From positions 15,106 to 79,105 of the forward strand of contig DUBN01000016.1 in assembly GCA_012960315.1 (NCBI GenBank): a stretch of 64,000 nucleotides of DNA. The letters are read 5' to 3'. Both the position numbers and the translations under genes were made by a program. The notes under the pieces are model-generated. The model saw only the letters and a program-made list of their open reading frames with translations, did no database searches and had not been told where the DNA came from. Of this stretch, positions 45,122-54,692 are shown piece by piece. Within the stretch, counting starts at the first letter, position 1, and every line of letters starts with the position of its first letter. Source of the DNA: Acidimicrobiia bacterium (GTDB lineage Bacteria; Actinomycetota; Acidimicrobiia; Acidimicrobiales; Poriferisodalaceae).

Positions 45122-48100
45122 TTAAACCTCGGTGAACTTCACTTGAGGTTCGTCCCCACCTGCTAGCCATACAATTCTCGAAGCCAAGACTGCTGCTGTG
45201 ACAGTGGTTTCATGCCCTTTGATCGCGTCTAAGTTTGGCGGTGACCACGCCACTTCGACGTCGATTCGCTGCGTGACTTCAAGATCTGCATCTTTTCTTG
45301 CCTGTTGGATAGTTCTGATTAGGTCTCGCGCTCGGCCTTCAGCTTCGAGTTCAGGAGTGACATCGGTGTCAAGGACAACTACAGCGTCGTTCGATCGCAA
45401 TGCGGCGGTGCTTTGTGGGTCAGCGGGATCAAGGGCCAGGTCGTATTCTTCGACTTCCAGAGTGTGCCCTGCGACACTGATTTGGTGTTCGTTAGTTAGA
45501 GACCATTCACCGCGTTTGGCAGCGGCGAAAACCTTCTGAACGTCGGCGCCTAGTCGGGGACCAAGAAGGTTGCCATTTGGCCGCAGGCTAAGAGTAGCGA
45601 AGTCACCGATTTCGGCTGTCAAGATGACTTGGTGTACGTTGATTTCCTCGGCTAAAAGATCTACCACCTCGCGAAGGTCCTCTGCGTTTGTTCCCGCCAG
45701 GGTGACCTTCGATAGCGGCAACCTCACTCGGAGTCCAGCATCTTCTCGCAGGCGAAGAGCCGTTGATGCCGCCTCTCTGATTTGATCCATTCTTGATACC
45801 AACTCGGGATCGGCCGGGAGTTCCTCAAGATGCGGCCAAGTGGCAAGATGAACGCTTTCTCCTCCGGTGAGGCCGCCATGGATTTCCTCCATAATCATTG
45901 GAAGAAATGGCGCAGCAATTCGGGTGAGAGTGGTGAGAACTGTGTACAGCGTGTCGTACGCATCTGGATCGCCTTGCCCGCCTCCTTCGGGTCCCCAAAA
46001 ACGATCTCGTGAGCGACGGATGTACCAGTTATTGAGAGCGTCGATGAAACTTTGGATTTCTGAAGCCGCTCCGGGGAGGTCGTAAGCGTCTAGGGCGAGG
46101 GTTGTCGATTCGACCAATGATCTTGTCTTGGCGAGGAGGTAACGGTCGAGTAAGTGGGGGGAGTCTGTTCGCCTGACTGCCTTGTGACCATCAACGTTGG
46201 CGTAAAGGGTAAAGAAGGAATAGGCATTCCATAACGGGATAAGGACTTGGCGTGTTACATCGTTGATTCCCGTGTCAGATATGCGGGTATCGCCTCCTCG
46301 TACAATGTTGGTGGACATCAGATACCAACGAAGGGCATCTGAGCCCTGGGAATCAAAAATTTCGGCTGGTTCGGTGTAATTGCGCAGCCGCTTTGAAAGT
46401 TTGTTGCCGTCTTCAGCTAGCAGAATGCCGTGGCAAATAACGTTCTGGAATGCGGGACGATCGAACAAAGCTCCTGCCAGCACATGCAGCGTGTAAAACC
46501 AGCCGCGAGTTTGATTTATGTATTCCACGATGAAGTCAGCGGGGAAATGTTCTTCAAACCAATCTTTGTTTTCGAACGGGTAATGAACTTGGGCGAAGGG
46601 CATTGACCCGGATTCGAACCAACAATCGAGCACCTCGGGTACTCGCCTCATAGTGCTTTTACCGGTGGGATCGTCTGGGTTGGCTCGAGTCAACTCGTCG
46701 ATGAAGGGGCGATGTAGATCCGTGGGACGAACTCCGAAATCAGCCTCAAGTTCGTCGAGGCTTCCGTACACATCGGTTCGTGGATAATTCGGATCGTCGC
46801 TGATCCAAATGGGTATTGGTGAGCCCCAGAATCGGTTTCTACTTATTGACCAATCGCGAGCGCCGGCTAGCCATTGCCCAAATCGGCCATCTTGAACATG
46901 ATCAGGAACCCAGTTGATTTCTTGGTTGATCTCTTGGAGGCGCGAGCGAATTTTTGTTACTTCGACATACCAAGATGAAATAGCCCGATAGATAATCGGA
47001 GTGTCAGTTCTCCAGCAGTGCGGATAGTTGTGTTCATAAGTCTCGTGTCGGAGAACCCTGCCCTCACCTTTGAGGTGTTGAATGATCCCTGGATTCGCCT
47101 CGAAGACGTTCTCACCAGCCCAGCCAGATACGTCTGCCGTGAATCGTCCTTGTTCGTCAACTGGTACTGCATCCCGAATCTCGATCCCATTTGATTCGCA
47201 AACGATCTGATCGTCTTCGCCGAAACCGGGCGCCATATGAACGATTCCGGTTCCTTCGCTCGTGTCCACGAAATCGGCTTCTAAAACGCGGAATGCATCT
47301 GAACGATGCTCGAAGTAGTCGAATAGTGGTTTGTAGACGCGGCCGACGAGGTCTGAGCCCCGGACCGATCCAAGTAATACGTGACCCTCGAGTTCTTCTG
47401 AGTACTTGTCTACACATTCAGCGCCGAGAATCCATTTGGCGCCCTGTGCCTCGATGACCGAATACTCGATGTTTGGCCCTACTGCCACGGCGAGATTAGA
47501 AGGTAACGTCCAAGGAGTCGTCGTCCATGTCGGTAACCGAACTGATTCGTCATCGCTGAGTCCTGGGATTCCGGTGCCTTCCAACTCAAACCAAACAGTG
47601 ATGGCTGGATCTTGACGAGGCCGAGTAGCGTCGTCCAACCGAATCTCAAAATTAGAAAGTGGAGTCTCTGCCCCCCACGAATAAGGCATCACCCGGAAGG
47701 CTTGGTAGATGAGACCACGCTCCCACAACTGCTTGAAAGCCCACATCACCGATTCCATATAGGACAGATCCATGGTCTTGTAGTCGTTGTCGAAATCGAC
47801 CCAGCGAGCTTGCCTAGTTACCGTCTCTTGCCACTCAGAGGTGTACCTAAGCACGGACTCTTTACAACTGGCGTTGAAATTCTCAATTCCGTACTCAGTT
47901 ATTGCGGCGCGTCCCTTTAGTCCCAACTCCTGTTCGGTTTCCATCTCGGCAGGTAAGCCGTGGCAGTCCCAGCCAAAACGGCGGTCCACGCGCTTACCGC
48001 GCATGGTTTGATACCGAGGAACCACGTCCTTGACGTATCCAGTGAGTAGGTGCCCGTGATGAGGTAGGCCATTGGCGAAAGGTGGCCCGTCGTAGACCAC

Positions 48101-48244
48101 AAACTCGTCGTTTTTGGGGCGCGATTCGATTGAATCTTTAAATGTTTTTTGCTCTGCCCAACGGTCCAGGACGCTGCGCTCAATGGCTGGAAAATCCGGC
48201 CGGTTTGGCACTTTAGGATACTGACTGTTGTTTGAAGCGCTCAT
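45122..48244 (-). CDS. ileS: Isoleucyl-tRNA synthetase (type 2-like)
   Basis: This 1040-residue class I synthetase has the HIGH motif as PFANGLPHHGH near residue 58, the KMSKS loop as GNKLSKR near 610, a large editing domain (about 190-400, with TWTTTPWTLPSNLAVAVG and FVDTSEGTGIVHMAPGFGEDD) and an anticodon-binding domain. Length and the K-x-SKR loop point to the eukaryote-like IleS2 type, which is usually less sensitive to mupirocin. The ATG at 48244 has AGGA upstream. No T-box leader is visible in the short gap. It lies on the opposite strand to all dcw genes. Confidence 0.96.
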   Translation of the reverse strand: MSASNNSQYPKVPNRPDFPAIERSVLDRWAEQKTFKDSIESRPKNDEFVVYDGPPFANGLPHHGHLLTGYVKDVVPRYQTMRGKRVDRRFGWDCHGLPAEMETEQELGLKGRAAITEYGIENFNASCKESVLRYTSEWQETVTRQARWVDFDNDYKTMDLSYMESVMWAFKQLWERGLIYQAFRVMPYSWGAETPLSNFEIRLDDATRPRQDPAITVWFELEGTGIPGLSDDESVRLPTWTTTPWTLPSNLAVAVGPNIEYSVIEAQGAKWILGAECVDKYSEELEGHVLLGSVRGSDLVGRVYKPLFDYFEHRSDAFRVLEADFVDTSEGTGIVHMAPGFGEDDQIVCESNGIEIRDAVPVDEQGRFTADVSGWAGENVFEANPGIIQHLKGEGRVLRHETYEHNYPHCWRTDTPIIYRAISSWYVEVTKIRSRLQEINQEINWVPDHVQDGRFGQWLAGARDWSISRNRFWGSPIPIWISDDPNYPRTDVYGSLDELEADFGVRPTDLHRPFIDELTRANPDDPTGKSTMRRVPEVLDCWFESGSMPFAQVHYPFENKDWFEEHFPADFIVEYINQTRGWFYTLHVLAGALFDRPAFQNVICHGILLAEDGNKLSKRLRNYTEPAEIFDSQGSDALRWYLMSTNIVRGGDTRISDTGINDVTRQVLIPLWNAYSFFTLYANVDGHKAVRRTDSPHLLDRYLLAKTRSLVESTTLALDAYDLPGAASEIQSFIDALNNWYIRRSRDRFWGPEGGGQGDPDAYDTLYTVLTTLTRIAAPFLPMIMEEIHGGLTGGESVHLATWPHLEELPADPELVSRMDQIREAASTALRLREDAGLRVRLPLSKVTLAGTNAEDLREVVDLLAEEINVHQVILTAEIGDFATLSLRPNGNLLGPRLGADVQKVFAAAKRGEWSLTNEHQISVAGHTLEVEEYDLALDPADPQSTAALRSNDAVVVLDTDVTPELEAEGRARDLIRTIQQARKDADLEVTQRIDVEVAWSPPNLDAIKGHETTVTAAVLASRIVWLAGGDEPQVKFTEV

Positions 48245-48396: not shown

Positions 48397-49047
48397 ATGG
48401 CCACAAAAAAGTCCGTTGGTAAGAAAAGCCCTGTGAAGAAGAAAACAGCCGTAAAGAAAAGCCCTGTGAAGAAGAAAACAGCCGTAAAGAAAAGCCCTGT
48501 GAAGAAGAAAACAGCCGTAAAGAAAAGCCCTGTGAAGAAGAAAGCAGTGGCAAAGAAAAGCCCTGTGAAGAAGAAAACAGCCGCAAAGAAAAGCCCTGTG
48601 AAGAAGAAAGCAGTGGCAAAGAAAAGCCCTGTGAAGAAGAAAACAGCGGCAAAAAAGGTGTCGGCGAAAGCTCGTTTCAATGCTCCCTGGTTGAAAAAAC
48701 AACGTGAGGCACTCTTGGCCGAACGGGGCCGGTATACCCAACATGCGGAATTTCTCGAAGAAGAGGCTGATCAGCTCGCACGAGACCGTGAGCCAGGTGA
48801 TGTCCAGTTCGATGAAGAGTCCGGTGAAGGTGATTCGATCGCGGTGGAACGCGACCGGGATCTCCAGTTGTCGGCACAGGCGAGGGCGGCTATCCAAGAT
48901 ATTGACCGTGCGCTTGAGCGAATCAAGAAAGATACATACGGCATCTGCATAGCTTCGGGGCTTCCGATTCCTAAGGAGCGCCTAGAAGCGCTTCCACATG
49001 CCGACATGCGTGTTGAGGAGAAAGCCACCGGCATGTCGTGGCGCTGA
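48397..49047 (+). CDS. Lysine-repeat protein with degenerate DksA/TraR domain
   Basis: This 216-residue protein has two parts. Residues 9-85 are seven copies of the 11-residue repeat KKSPVKKK(T/A)(A/V)(V/A), strongly basic like histone H1 tails and likely to bind nucleic acid. Residues 92-216 form a DksA/TraR-like unit: a coiled-coil hairpin with acidic residues, then IQDIDRALERIKKDTYGICIASGLPIPKERLEALPHA. Only one of the four expected zinc cysteines remains (in YGIC), so the finger cannot bind zinc in the usual way. The ATG at 48397 has GGGAGGGGAG upstream. It precedes lspA in the normal actinobacterial order. Confidence 0.88.
   Translation: MATKKSVGKKSPVKKKTAVKKSPVKKKTAVKKSPVKKKTAVKKSPVKKKAVAKKSPVKKKTAAKKSPVKKKAVAKKSPVKKKTAAKKVSAKARFNAPWLKKQREALLAERGRYTQHAEFLEEEADQLARDREPGDVQFDEESGEGDSIAVERDRDLQLSAQARAAIQDIDRALERIKKDTYGICIASGLPIPKERLEALPHADMRVEEKATGMSWR
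48421..48651 (+). repeat. Seven in-frame 33-bp tandem repeats
   Basis: A 33-base unit beginning AAGAAAAGCCCTGTGAAGAA repeats seven times without interruption inside the lysine-repeat gene. The first three copies are nearly identical. Later copies alternate between the KKSPVKKKAVA and KKSPVKKKTAA versions. The near identity at the DNA level suggests recent expansion and possible copy-number variation. Confidence 0.95.
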
Positions 49048-49051
49048 GCTT

Positions 49052-49540
49052 GTGCCGATGTTTACCAAAGTGCCTAGCGCTCGTTTAATAACACTTACCG
49101 GTTTTACGATATTTGCTTTAGATCAAATGACTAAAGCTTGGGCTGCTTCCGCGCTTGATAGCGACTCCATCGAAATCATGTGGAAGTTGCGCTTGCATCT
49201 GACGACGAATACGGGATTCGCGTTCAGTACAGGTAAGGGTCTCGGCCCAATGCTTGGACTTTTGGCAGCATGTGTAGTTTTTTTGCTTTGGAGGATGCGA
49301 ACGAAATTCTCTTCGCGTCTAGGTACTTTTGCACTGGGGTTGGTGCTGGGCGGCGCATGCGGCAATTTAGCTGATCGGCTTTTTCGGGTTCCGCGGTGGG
49401 GACGTGGCGCTGTCGTAGATTTTATTGACTTCCGATTTTGGCCGGTCTTCAATCTGGCGGATGCGGCAATCGTTTCCGGGGTAGTCATGTTGGGTGCAAG
49501 CATGTGGTTCGAACAGCGGGGGGAGCAGCACAATGCGTGA
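49052..49540 (+). CDS. lspA: Lipoprotein signal peptidase
   Basis: This 162-residue aspartic protease removes signal peptides from lipoproteins. It has four helices and the catalytic motifs GGACGNLADRL and VVDFIDFRFWPVFNLADAAI, with the two active-site Asp residues. TNTGFAFS is the usual N-terminal motif. GTG at 49052 (four bases after the previous stop) or ATG at 49058 are the likely starts. A longer frame reaches back into the lysine-repeat gene and is rejected. It overlaps rluD by eight bases. Confidence 0.93.
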   Translation: MPMFTKVPSARLITLTGFTIFALDQMTKAWAASALDSDSIEIMWKLRLHLTTNTGFAFSTGKGLGPMLGLLAACVVFLLWRMRTKFSSRLGTFALGLVLGGACGNLADRLFRVPRWGRGAVVDFIDFRFWPVFNLADAAIVSGVVMLGASMWFEQRGEQHNA

Positions 49541-51708: not shown

Positions 51709-52242
51709 ATGGTTGAGCAGCACCCAGTCTCTCCCCTCGAATCTCCACCCGAGGCGCTTGAAGACGATGTTGAGTTAATTGAACCAAGTTCCGCCTCCCC
51801 GGGTGAAGAAGAAGAGCCCGCCATTTCGGAACCTGCCAAAGTCATGCGTATTGGTTCGATGATCAGAACAATGCTTGATGAGGTGCGCGAAGTTGAGCTT
51901 GATGAGGCAAGTCGCGACCGTATGAGAGAGATTTACGAACAGTCAGTGGCTGAGCTGTCAGAAACTCTTGCACCTGAACTTCGAGAGGAACTAGCCCGCT
52001 TAGCGCTGCCGTTCAGTTCAGAGGCACCCTCAGAAGCTGAGCTACGAGTAGCTCAAGCGCAACTAGTCGGTTGGCTAGAAGGATTATTTCACGGTATTCA
52101 AGCCGCCGTAGCGGCTCAACAAATGATGGCCCAGCGTCAACTTATGGAGATGCGGCAAGGTGCCTTGCCTCCGGGAGTGGGAACCGGGGATAGCTCAGAT
52201 ACAGGTCAGAAAGACTCACGACCCGGTGGCGTTTACCTATGA
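51709..52242 (+). CDS. bpa: Bacterial proteasome activator
   Basis: This 177-residue protein matches the DUF2587/Bpa family: PAKVMRIGSMIRTMLDEVREVELDEASRDRMREIYEQS, LAPELREELARLALPF, AELRVAQAQLVGWLEGLFHGIQAAVAAQQM and LPPG. Bpa forms an ATP-independent 12-mer ring that feeds unfolded proteins to the 20S proteasome. The last residues, V175-Y176-L177, are the HbYX tail that docks in the proteasome alpha ring. This implies that proteasome genes lie elsewhere in the genome. The N-terminal 40 residues are acidic and probably disordered. Confidence 0.95.
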   Translation: MVEQHPVSPLESPPEALEDDVELIEPSSASPGEEEEPAISEPAKVMRIGSMIRTMLDEVREVELDEASRDRMREIYEQSVAELSETLAPELREELARLALPFSSEAPSEAELRVAQAQLVGWLEGLFHGIQAAVAAQQMMAQRQLMEMRQGALPPGVGTGDSSDTGQKDSRPGGVYL

Positions 52243-52324
52243 AGAACGCCTTCATTTTGCGCAATCACCGTTCATCGGCTGGACTAATGCGTCGACGACG
52301 CGCACTGATGGAGGGAACTCCCTG

Positions 52325-52990
52325 ATGGCTCTGACGGTCGAGACCAAAGACTGCACGGCATTGAGCGATGCCGAAATTGAAGAGATGGCGGATCTCATTG
52401 ATGATGAACCAGTCATCTTTGACGTAGGTGAGTTGTCTAAGCAGCGTGATGCTTGGGTGCTAGTGACTCAGGTGCGAGATGGAAGCAGACTCGCCGCTTA
52501 CGGGTTCTGCACCCTTGAGCGCGTCGGTGGCGATCCAACAGTGTTGATTGGTCTCGCCGCGGTACGACGTACAAGTCGTCGCGAGAGTGCATTAAAAGGA
52601 ATGATTGCAGACCAGATGCGACGTGCTGTGCTTGCGTTCCCAGACGAGGATGTGCTGGTAGCGGCACAAATTGCCGACCCCGCAGCTTTCGACGCGTACA
52701 AACCACTCAGTAGCGTCGTGCCCCGTCCGGGTTATGAAGCCAACGGTGAAGATAGAGCGTGGGGACGCCGACTGGCGAAACGTTTCGATGTGCGGGGCGA
52801 ATACAAAGCAAAAGAGTTCCGTGTCTACGGTGAGGGCGCTCCGTCGTTGGTTCTGAATCACAGTTCGTCGAAACCTGAAACCATTAATCCGGCGGTAGCA
52901 GCCCTTTTCGACGGGCATGATCAGTCGAAGGGCGATGCCCTAGTCGCTTTTGGGTGGGCGACTCGCGAGAAGCTCGCTAAGTTGCTCTGA
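52325..52990 (+). CDS. Putative GNAT-like protein
   Basis: This is a protein of about 221 residues with the pattern AWVLVTQVRDGSRLAAYGFCTLERVGGDPTVLIGLAAVRRTSRRESALKGMIADQMRRAVLAFPDEDVLVAAQIADPAAFDAYKPL. This resembles a GNAT acetyltransferase fold, with a possible acyl-CoA loop RRTSRRESALKGM. The substrate is unknown. The frame extends back to 52160 inside bpa, but ATG at 52325 with GGAGGG about 9 bases upstream is the more likely start. The 82 bases between bpa and this start hold no clear promoter. Confidence 0.65.
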   Translation: MALTVETKDCTALSDAEIEEMADLIDDEPVIFDVGELSKQRDAWVLVTQVRDGSRLAAYGFCTLERVGGDPTVLIGLAAVRRTSRRESALKGMIADQMRRAVLAFPDEDVLVAAQIADPAAFDAYKPLSSVVPRPGYEANGEDRAWGRRLAKRFDVRGEYKAKEFRVYGEGAPSLVLNHSSSKPETINPAVAALFDGHDQSKGDALVAFGWATREKLAKLL

Positions 52991-53642: not shown

Positions 53643-54692
53643 GTGCAGTTGAACCAATCCTCCGAAAGTGAAGAGCTCGGTATTGATGCTCTCAGCGAGT
53701 TATTCCACCGGTACCTGACCGGTCTAATACTCGCGATGGTGGTTGAACTTGGTGAAAGTAAAACTGCTGATGTGATGAAGGGACTGTTCCGCCGTCAGCA
53801 AGGAGAACGGTTCTTGCCTGGTTTGAAAAAGTTGGGCCTTTCTGACGAACCAGATGCCGTTGCATGCGCGAAATATCACTTCCTCTCTAATCACGTCGGA
53901 GGGGTTTCAGTGGCATATATCGCGGAGTCCGACACCAAAGCCTGGATTCGGTACCTCCCCCCACGCTGGATTTTCGACGGGACAGCGATCGCCGCTATCC
54001 CAACACAAGTGGCTAGGGCAATGCTGTGGGGCTGGCACGCGAACAATGGGGTGTTGCTAGGTAATCCGCGCCTCGGGTTTGTCTGTACCGGACAAACGAT
54101 GGATGGCGCACCCGGGCTTGAGGGCTACTACATAGAGGAAGACAGGATCCTTGAACCCGATGAAAGGCTTAGATTTCGATTCGGTGAAAGCTGCCCAGCA
54201 ATTGATTATGAGGCTCTACCAACACTTGATAACCAGCAATGGCCGAACGAGCGACTCAACAAAGCAGCTCGCAATTACGCGATGGATTACATCAGAAACA
54301 TTGTTCCGGTGATGTGTGAGCAGCTAGGTCCTCTGGTTGCCCAAGGCGTCCTTTACCGCACCGGCCGGCAGATCGGGATGCAGTATTCAGAATCAATACG
54401 GACAACCCTCGGACTAGAAAATCCTGTCGAAGTTCTTGCAGCCTTGTTTCGGGCCCAAGGTGACCAAGTCTCCGTCCGCGAAAATGAGATCACGCAAACC
54501 ACCTGGAAACTGATGAACGGTTTAGAGGCGGAGAGTCTGCCCGATTGGATGGACGGATTACGGGGTTTATGGGAAGGCGTCGTGAACGTCACTGGCCCAG
54601 ATTTGCGATTGGAGTTATTGGATCGCCTAGACACCGGAGGAAATTGCTTCCGTTGGCGGTGTTCGGCGATCTCCGAGCCTTCCAAATACTAG
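53643..54692 (+). CDS. Conserved-looking protein of unknown function
   Basis: This is a 349-residue soluble protein with no signal peptide and no membrane helix. It has an alpha-helical C-terminal half and a repeated-looking helix-turn pattern around ALSELFHRYLTGLILAMVVELGE and YAMDYIRNIVPVMCEQLGPLVAQGVLYRTGRQIGMQY. The middle is rich in Trp (TKAWIRYLPPRWIFDG, AMLWGWHANNG). I do not recognise the family. It begins 21 bases after the nitroreductase and overlaps the end of the convergent F420-type gene by four bases. The GTG at 53643 is the assigned start. Confidence 0.65.
   Translation: MQLNQSSESEELGIDALSELFHRYLTGLILAMVVELGESKTADVMKGLFRRQQGERFLPGLKKLGLSDEPDAVACAKYHFLSNHVGGVSVAYIAESDTKAWIRYLPPRWIFDGTAIAAIPTQVARAMLWGWHANNGVLLGNPRLGFVCTGQTMDGAPGLEGYYIEEDRILEPDERLRFRFGESCPAIDYEALPTLDNQQWPNERLNKAARNYAMDYIRNIVPVMCEQLGPLVAQGVLYRTGRQIGMQYSESIRTTLGLENPVEVLAALFRAQGDQVSVRENEITQTTWKLMNGLEAESLPDWMDGLRGLWEGVVNVTGPDLRLELLDRLDTGGNCFRWRCSAISEPSKY

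Follow-up and report, generated by a model that had tools for sequence, protein, structure and literature searches.

A DdbA-type gene of Acidimicrobiia joining a lysine-repeat tail to a DksA-type domain without its zinc site

Introduction

What is the role of a protein in which a run of lysine-rich repeats precedes a DksA/TraR-like domain that has lost most of its zinc ligands? The question is raised by a gene in a 64,000-nucleotide stretch of DNA from an Acidimicrobiia bacterium, here called the window, in whose positions all coordinates are given. The answer favored here, at a probability of roughly 0.7, is that the gene corresponds, in Acidimicrobiia, to DdbA, a protein studied in Streptomyces, and encodes a tail that would hold DNA and a zinc-free domain that would bind RNA polymerase.

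The gene and its repeat tail

The gene and the features of its first part are as follows.

48397..49047, forward strand: DdbA-type gene, an open reading frame of 216 amino acids with an ATG start and a TGA stop
Immediately 5' of the gene: GGGAGGGG, a ribosome-binding-like stretch
48397..48663, forward strand: basic, lysine-rich tail of 89 amino acids, with 39 lysines and no aspartate or glutamate
48421..48653, forward strand: tandem array of seven 33-bp units, KKSPVKKK followed by TAV, AVA, or TAA (from TRF and the unit sequences)

The protein begins with MATKK, a start that is also present in the relatives L003 and L031. A sequence-only reading of this DNA had described seven 33-base repeats encoding a basic tail of 77 residues, and this description is borne out. 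In the 64-kb window, TRF reports the array with a period of 33, 7.1 copies, 94% matches, and a score of 396; the only other tandem-repeat row is the same array read with a shorter period. The seven units account for 77 of the 89 tail residues. KKSPVKKKTAV occurs three times, and KKSPVKKKAVA and KKSPVKKKTAA twice each, such that the three kinds differ only in their final three residues. At the DNA level, copies one to three do not differ, and the last ones alternate. Antisense reading frames across the array are its mirror images. Promoter and terminator scans gave nothing above chance.

The tail has a pI of 11.6, compared with 5.05 for the domain that follows, and is probably disordered and DNA-binding. 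It scores 24.8 bits against the histone-H1-like model HC2 (cut-off 40) and 30.2 bits against the histone-H1-like model NF038053 (cut-off 80); as far as sequence goes, the likeness to these models is one of composition only. The tail had been called histone H1-like or HU-type. The first term stands, from the sequence and from the relatives. The second does not, as the HU fold (PF00216) is unmatched in the window protein and HU is encoded by a separate gene elsewhere in the genome.

A DksA-type domain without the zinc site

The second part of the protein contains three features.

48664..49044, forward strand: DksA-type domain of 127 amino acids (AlphaFold2, Foldseek)
48787..48834, forward strand: REPGDVQFDEESGEGD, the tip segment (residues 42-57 of the domain), where conservation in the family is highest
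48946..49020, forward strand: former C4 zinc site, domain Cys95, Ser98, Arg116, and Glu119, in place of CxxC...CxxC

The domain alone matches PF01258 (DksA/TraR) with 26.0 bits against a cut-off of 24.9, and the whole protein with 24.7 bits. Judged by sequence, the match is real, though weak in Pfam. Two NCBIfam models, bacill_yteA (67.9 bits) and dksA (43.1 bits), each score under their own cut-off. In a profile search of the genome, the window gene is the sole PF01258 match; the genome encodes one RelA/SpoT.

The full set of four zinc cysteines in the family pattern CxxC-x17-CxxC is absent from the window domain, which has C-S-R-E where four-Cys relatives have C-C-C-C. The earlier observation that one of the four cysteines is kept is therefore correct. 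Since Ser98 and Arg116 are invariant across 55 zinc-less relatives, the change is fixed and does not resemble decay. Between the window and L031, the domain shows 29 synonymous and 6 non-synonymous base differences; by this comparison it is under purifying selection, with strong constraint.

The AlphaFold2 model of the domain (mean pLDDT 87.6) predicts a coiled-coil hairpin (helices 7-41 and 58-88) with an acidic tip loop (42-57) and a small globular part, so that both the hairpin and the globular domain of the DksA/TraR family are present in the predicted fold. Within the tip segment, P44-G54 and G56 are invariant among 55 sequences, and R42, E43, E55, and D57 are nearly so. The tip loop of DksA reaches the active-site region of the polymerase. 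A tip motif, DxxDxA, has been termed critical for TraR/DksA (PMC9239242), and this exact motif appears not to be retained letter for letter in the window domain. In a profile alignment, which is uncertain at this point, Asp57 falls on Asp74 of E. coli DksA and Ile/Leu59 falls on Ala76.

The modeled fold is thus of DksA type, and its best structural match is a DksA that lacks zinc. Foldseek places DksA2 of Pseudomonas aeruginosa first (4ijj, TM 0.78), followed by DksA (1tjl, TM 0.75), and also finds DksA within the RNA polymerase complexes 5vsw and 7khi. DksA2 and the window domain share the DksA fold without zinc. DksA2 is a second copy produced under zinc starvation (PMC9213440), and no lysine tail has been described for it, whereas the window protein is tailed, no other DksA-type gene was found in the genome, and its own gene lies at a conserved housekeeping locus. 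According to a published discussion, the C4 finger is not always required for DksA-like function (PMC9239242).

The locus

The gene lies between two neighbors.

45122..48244, reverse strand: ileS, a divergent neighbor (open reading frame), also adjacent in relatives with enough flanking sequence
49058..49540, forward strand: lspA (signal peptidase II, PF01252), starting 10 bp past the stop of the DdbA-type gene

It is probably co-transcribed with lspA. The order ileS, DdbA-type gene, lspA, and usually rluD is found in relatives and across the phylum; in a phylum-wide panel, lspA and ileS adjoin the gene in most members. Further neighbors in the window are a YggS-like gene (PF01168), sepF, a putative YggT-like frame, and divIVA. 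A few genes downstream, positions 51709-52242 match the bacterial proteasome activator PF10759 with 204.7 bits, and two long frames (52160-52990 and 53643-54692) have no Pfam match.

Plasmid and phage collections contain only distant DksA/TraR matches, so there is no sign of a mobile-element origin. One entry filed as a plasmid, NZ_LT559118.1 (L235) of Nonomuraea gerenzanensis, is chromosome-sized at 11.85 Mb. Near ileS it has a DksA-type gene with four Cys, to which no lysine tail is joined in frame.

Comparison with DdbA

The original study of DdbA (SCO2075) is reportedly that of Aldridge et al. (2013; doi 10.1093/nar/gkt180) in S. coelicolor. In published accounts, an N-terminal histone-H1-like DNA-binding domain is followed in DdbA by a C-terminal DksA domain acting as a modulator of RNA polymerase (PMC9043899), and deletion of ddbA alters how compact the chromosome is and how well spores resist stress (PMC11942623). 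In the S. coelicolor genome, lsp is SCO2074 (PMC4941574), DdbA is SCO2075 (PMC11942623), and ileS is SCO2076 (PMC3276577).

DdbA and the window protein therefore share a lysine-rich, H1-like N-terminal tail, a C-terminal DksA-type domain, and a position at the ileS/lspA locus, a likeness drawn from the published description and the locus tags. Because of this shared build and position, the window gene is best called DdbA-type.

A similar arrangement is seen in genomes of 7.1-9.9 Mb that, judged by size and locus, are probably Streptomyces. Immediately ahead of lspA, these encode a DksA domain preceded by a tail rich in Lys, Ala, and Thr; the zinc positions hold four cysteines in all but L198, in which the fourth is Asp. 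Their Cys set is complete or nearly so and their tail is longer and less regular, whereas the window gene has C-S-R-E and a tail that is a near-perfect 33-bp tandem array. Outside the core of the domain, the window protein and these sequences have little identity.

The architecture of tail and DksA-type domain was thus already known, and the zinc-less Acidimicrobiia lineage is a variant of it, not a new system. In the library searched, no paper on a DksA-like protein in Acidimicrobiia was found.

Close relatives and repeat copy number

The search covered 61 whole genomes, 60 of them from relatives and one the window's own, and located the domain in 59. From public genomes, 403 encoded relatives were obtained by a scan and 80 retained. 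Where relatives have a named host, it belongs to the Acidimicrobiia. All 86 distinct close relatives retain at most one of the four zinc cysteines, and 17 retain none. Ser-Ser-Arg-Glu, without any cysteine, occurs at the zinc site of L006, L008-L019, and L021-L024.

Nearly all close relatives with a complete gene have a basic tail, so the combination first noticed in the window, a basic tail on a DksA-type domain without a zinc site, is a build conserved across the family. Where the tail is complete, the median is about 70 residues with 30% lysine, start codons having been picked by rule. Automatic tail starts run too far upstream in the high-GC genomes L195-L197 and L143, whose tail lengths are excluded. 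A full finger with a single repeat, the case that would have pointed to a local artefact, is absent among close relatives; more distant tailed relatives are four-Cys.

The repeat units of relatives differ from those of the window and range from 15 to 69 bp. The nearest complete relative, L031 (domain 97% identical), has about three units in its draft assembly, compared with seven in the window. The suggestion that the copy number can change is thus upheld between species. Of the 80 relatives, 24 have a contig end in the 300 bp that precede the domain, and none in the 300 bp that follow it. Since draft contigs often break in the tail, unit counts, including the seven of the window, are unreliable.

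Evolution of zinc loss

The domain tree was built from 110 rows and 122 columns, with the four zinc columns removed. Acidimicrobiia and close kin fall on one branch (SH-aLRT 100), within which support is modest. Tailed four-Cys members (L156, L180, L181, L184-L186, and L188-L192) surround the zinc-less set; L121 is four-Cys and has no tail. Over the whole tree at least three changes of zinc state are needed, and two of these each affect one row elsewhere (L128 and L214). L120 and L194, with Cys-Ser-Cys-Cys, keep three ligands yet are placed inside the zinc-less set.

The simplest reading of the tree is that the tail was present before zinc ligands were lost, with one such loss on the Acidimicrobiia branch. 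Because many inner forks are weakly supported and 122 columns serve 110 rows, a single loss is not proven. Independent losses are too few for an association between tail and Cys loss to be judged by independent pairs.

Outside the window's class, many ileS/lspA-linked DksA-type proteins have Cys-Cys-Cys-Asp, a possible Cys3Asp zinc site. Examples are L122-L124, L126, L127, L130-L134, and L136-L138, among others.

Proposed function

Since its build is conserved in relatives and has been published for DdbA, a nucleoid- or RNA polymerase-associated role is the best reading of the window protein. The disordered lysine tail would bind DNA without sequence preference, and the DksA-type domain would bind RNA polymerase via the secondary channel. 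Together they may link the state of the nucleoid with transcription, perhaps also with ppGpp. The zinc finger that holds the globular part of DksA together would be replaced by a zinc-free core with a fixed Ser and Arg, for which DksA2 of Pseudomonas would be an independent parallel; this loss of zinc may be of benefit. Expansion and contraction of the 33-bp repeats would set the length of the tail. It is conceivable, though doubtful, that in this whole Actinomycetota lineage the sole DdbA/DksA has come to work without zinc or thiol chemistry, and that its hold on DNA is tuned by repeat number.

Alternatively, the tail may do the work, with the DksA domain only a scaffold that no longer acts on RNA polymerase, which would leave a plain histone-like nucleoid protein. 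The loss of the zinc ligands and the apparent loss of the exact DxxDxA motif are in keeping with this, as is the retention of a long tail. However, no segment of the protein is more conserved than the tip loop, the domain is constrained more strongly than a mere scaffold would need, and other zinc-less DksA proteins keep their function (PMC9239242), which together make the scaffold model improbable.

Less probable still is a tail that mainly binds another polyanion, such as polyphosphate granules or RNA, a role put forward for the KPAA tail of AlgP in Pseudomonas. The tails of AlgP/PhaF and Hc1/Hc2 resemble that of the window protein in their Lys/Ala/Pro repeat composition, although their folded domain differs from that of the window protein. 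AlgP, whose Lys/Pro/Ala repeat (KPAA) tail also changes in repeat number, is located on polyphosphate granules, but AlgP-type repeat peptides bind DNA too (PMC9239181). Moreover, a search for the polyphosphate kinase PPK1 (PF02503) alone gave no match in the genome, which is about 97% complete.

That the gene is a local artefact, decayed or misassembled, is barely credible: the contig ends near the tail mean that the precise number of copies may be in error, but for the gene itself this explanation is refuted by the intact frame, the conserved start and locus, and purifying selection, and almost all relatives whose gene is complete have a basic tail.

Significance

With a nucleoid- and RNA polymerase-associated role as the preferred reading, DdbA, which has been studied in spore-forming Streptomyces, is extended to the small-genome Acidimicrobiia. 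There it is apparently the sole DksA-type protein, which suggests that the zinc finger is dispensable while the tip is almost frozen. Tailed four-Cys proteins, followed by those with Cys-Ser-Cys-Cys, Cys-Ser-Arg-x, and Ser-Ser-x-Glu, form a natural series in which one may ask about the function of the zinc site of DksA proteins and about whether the length of the tail is of importance.
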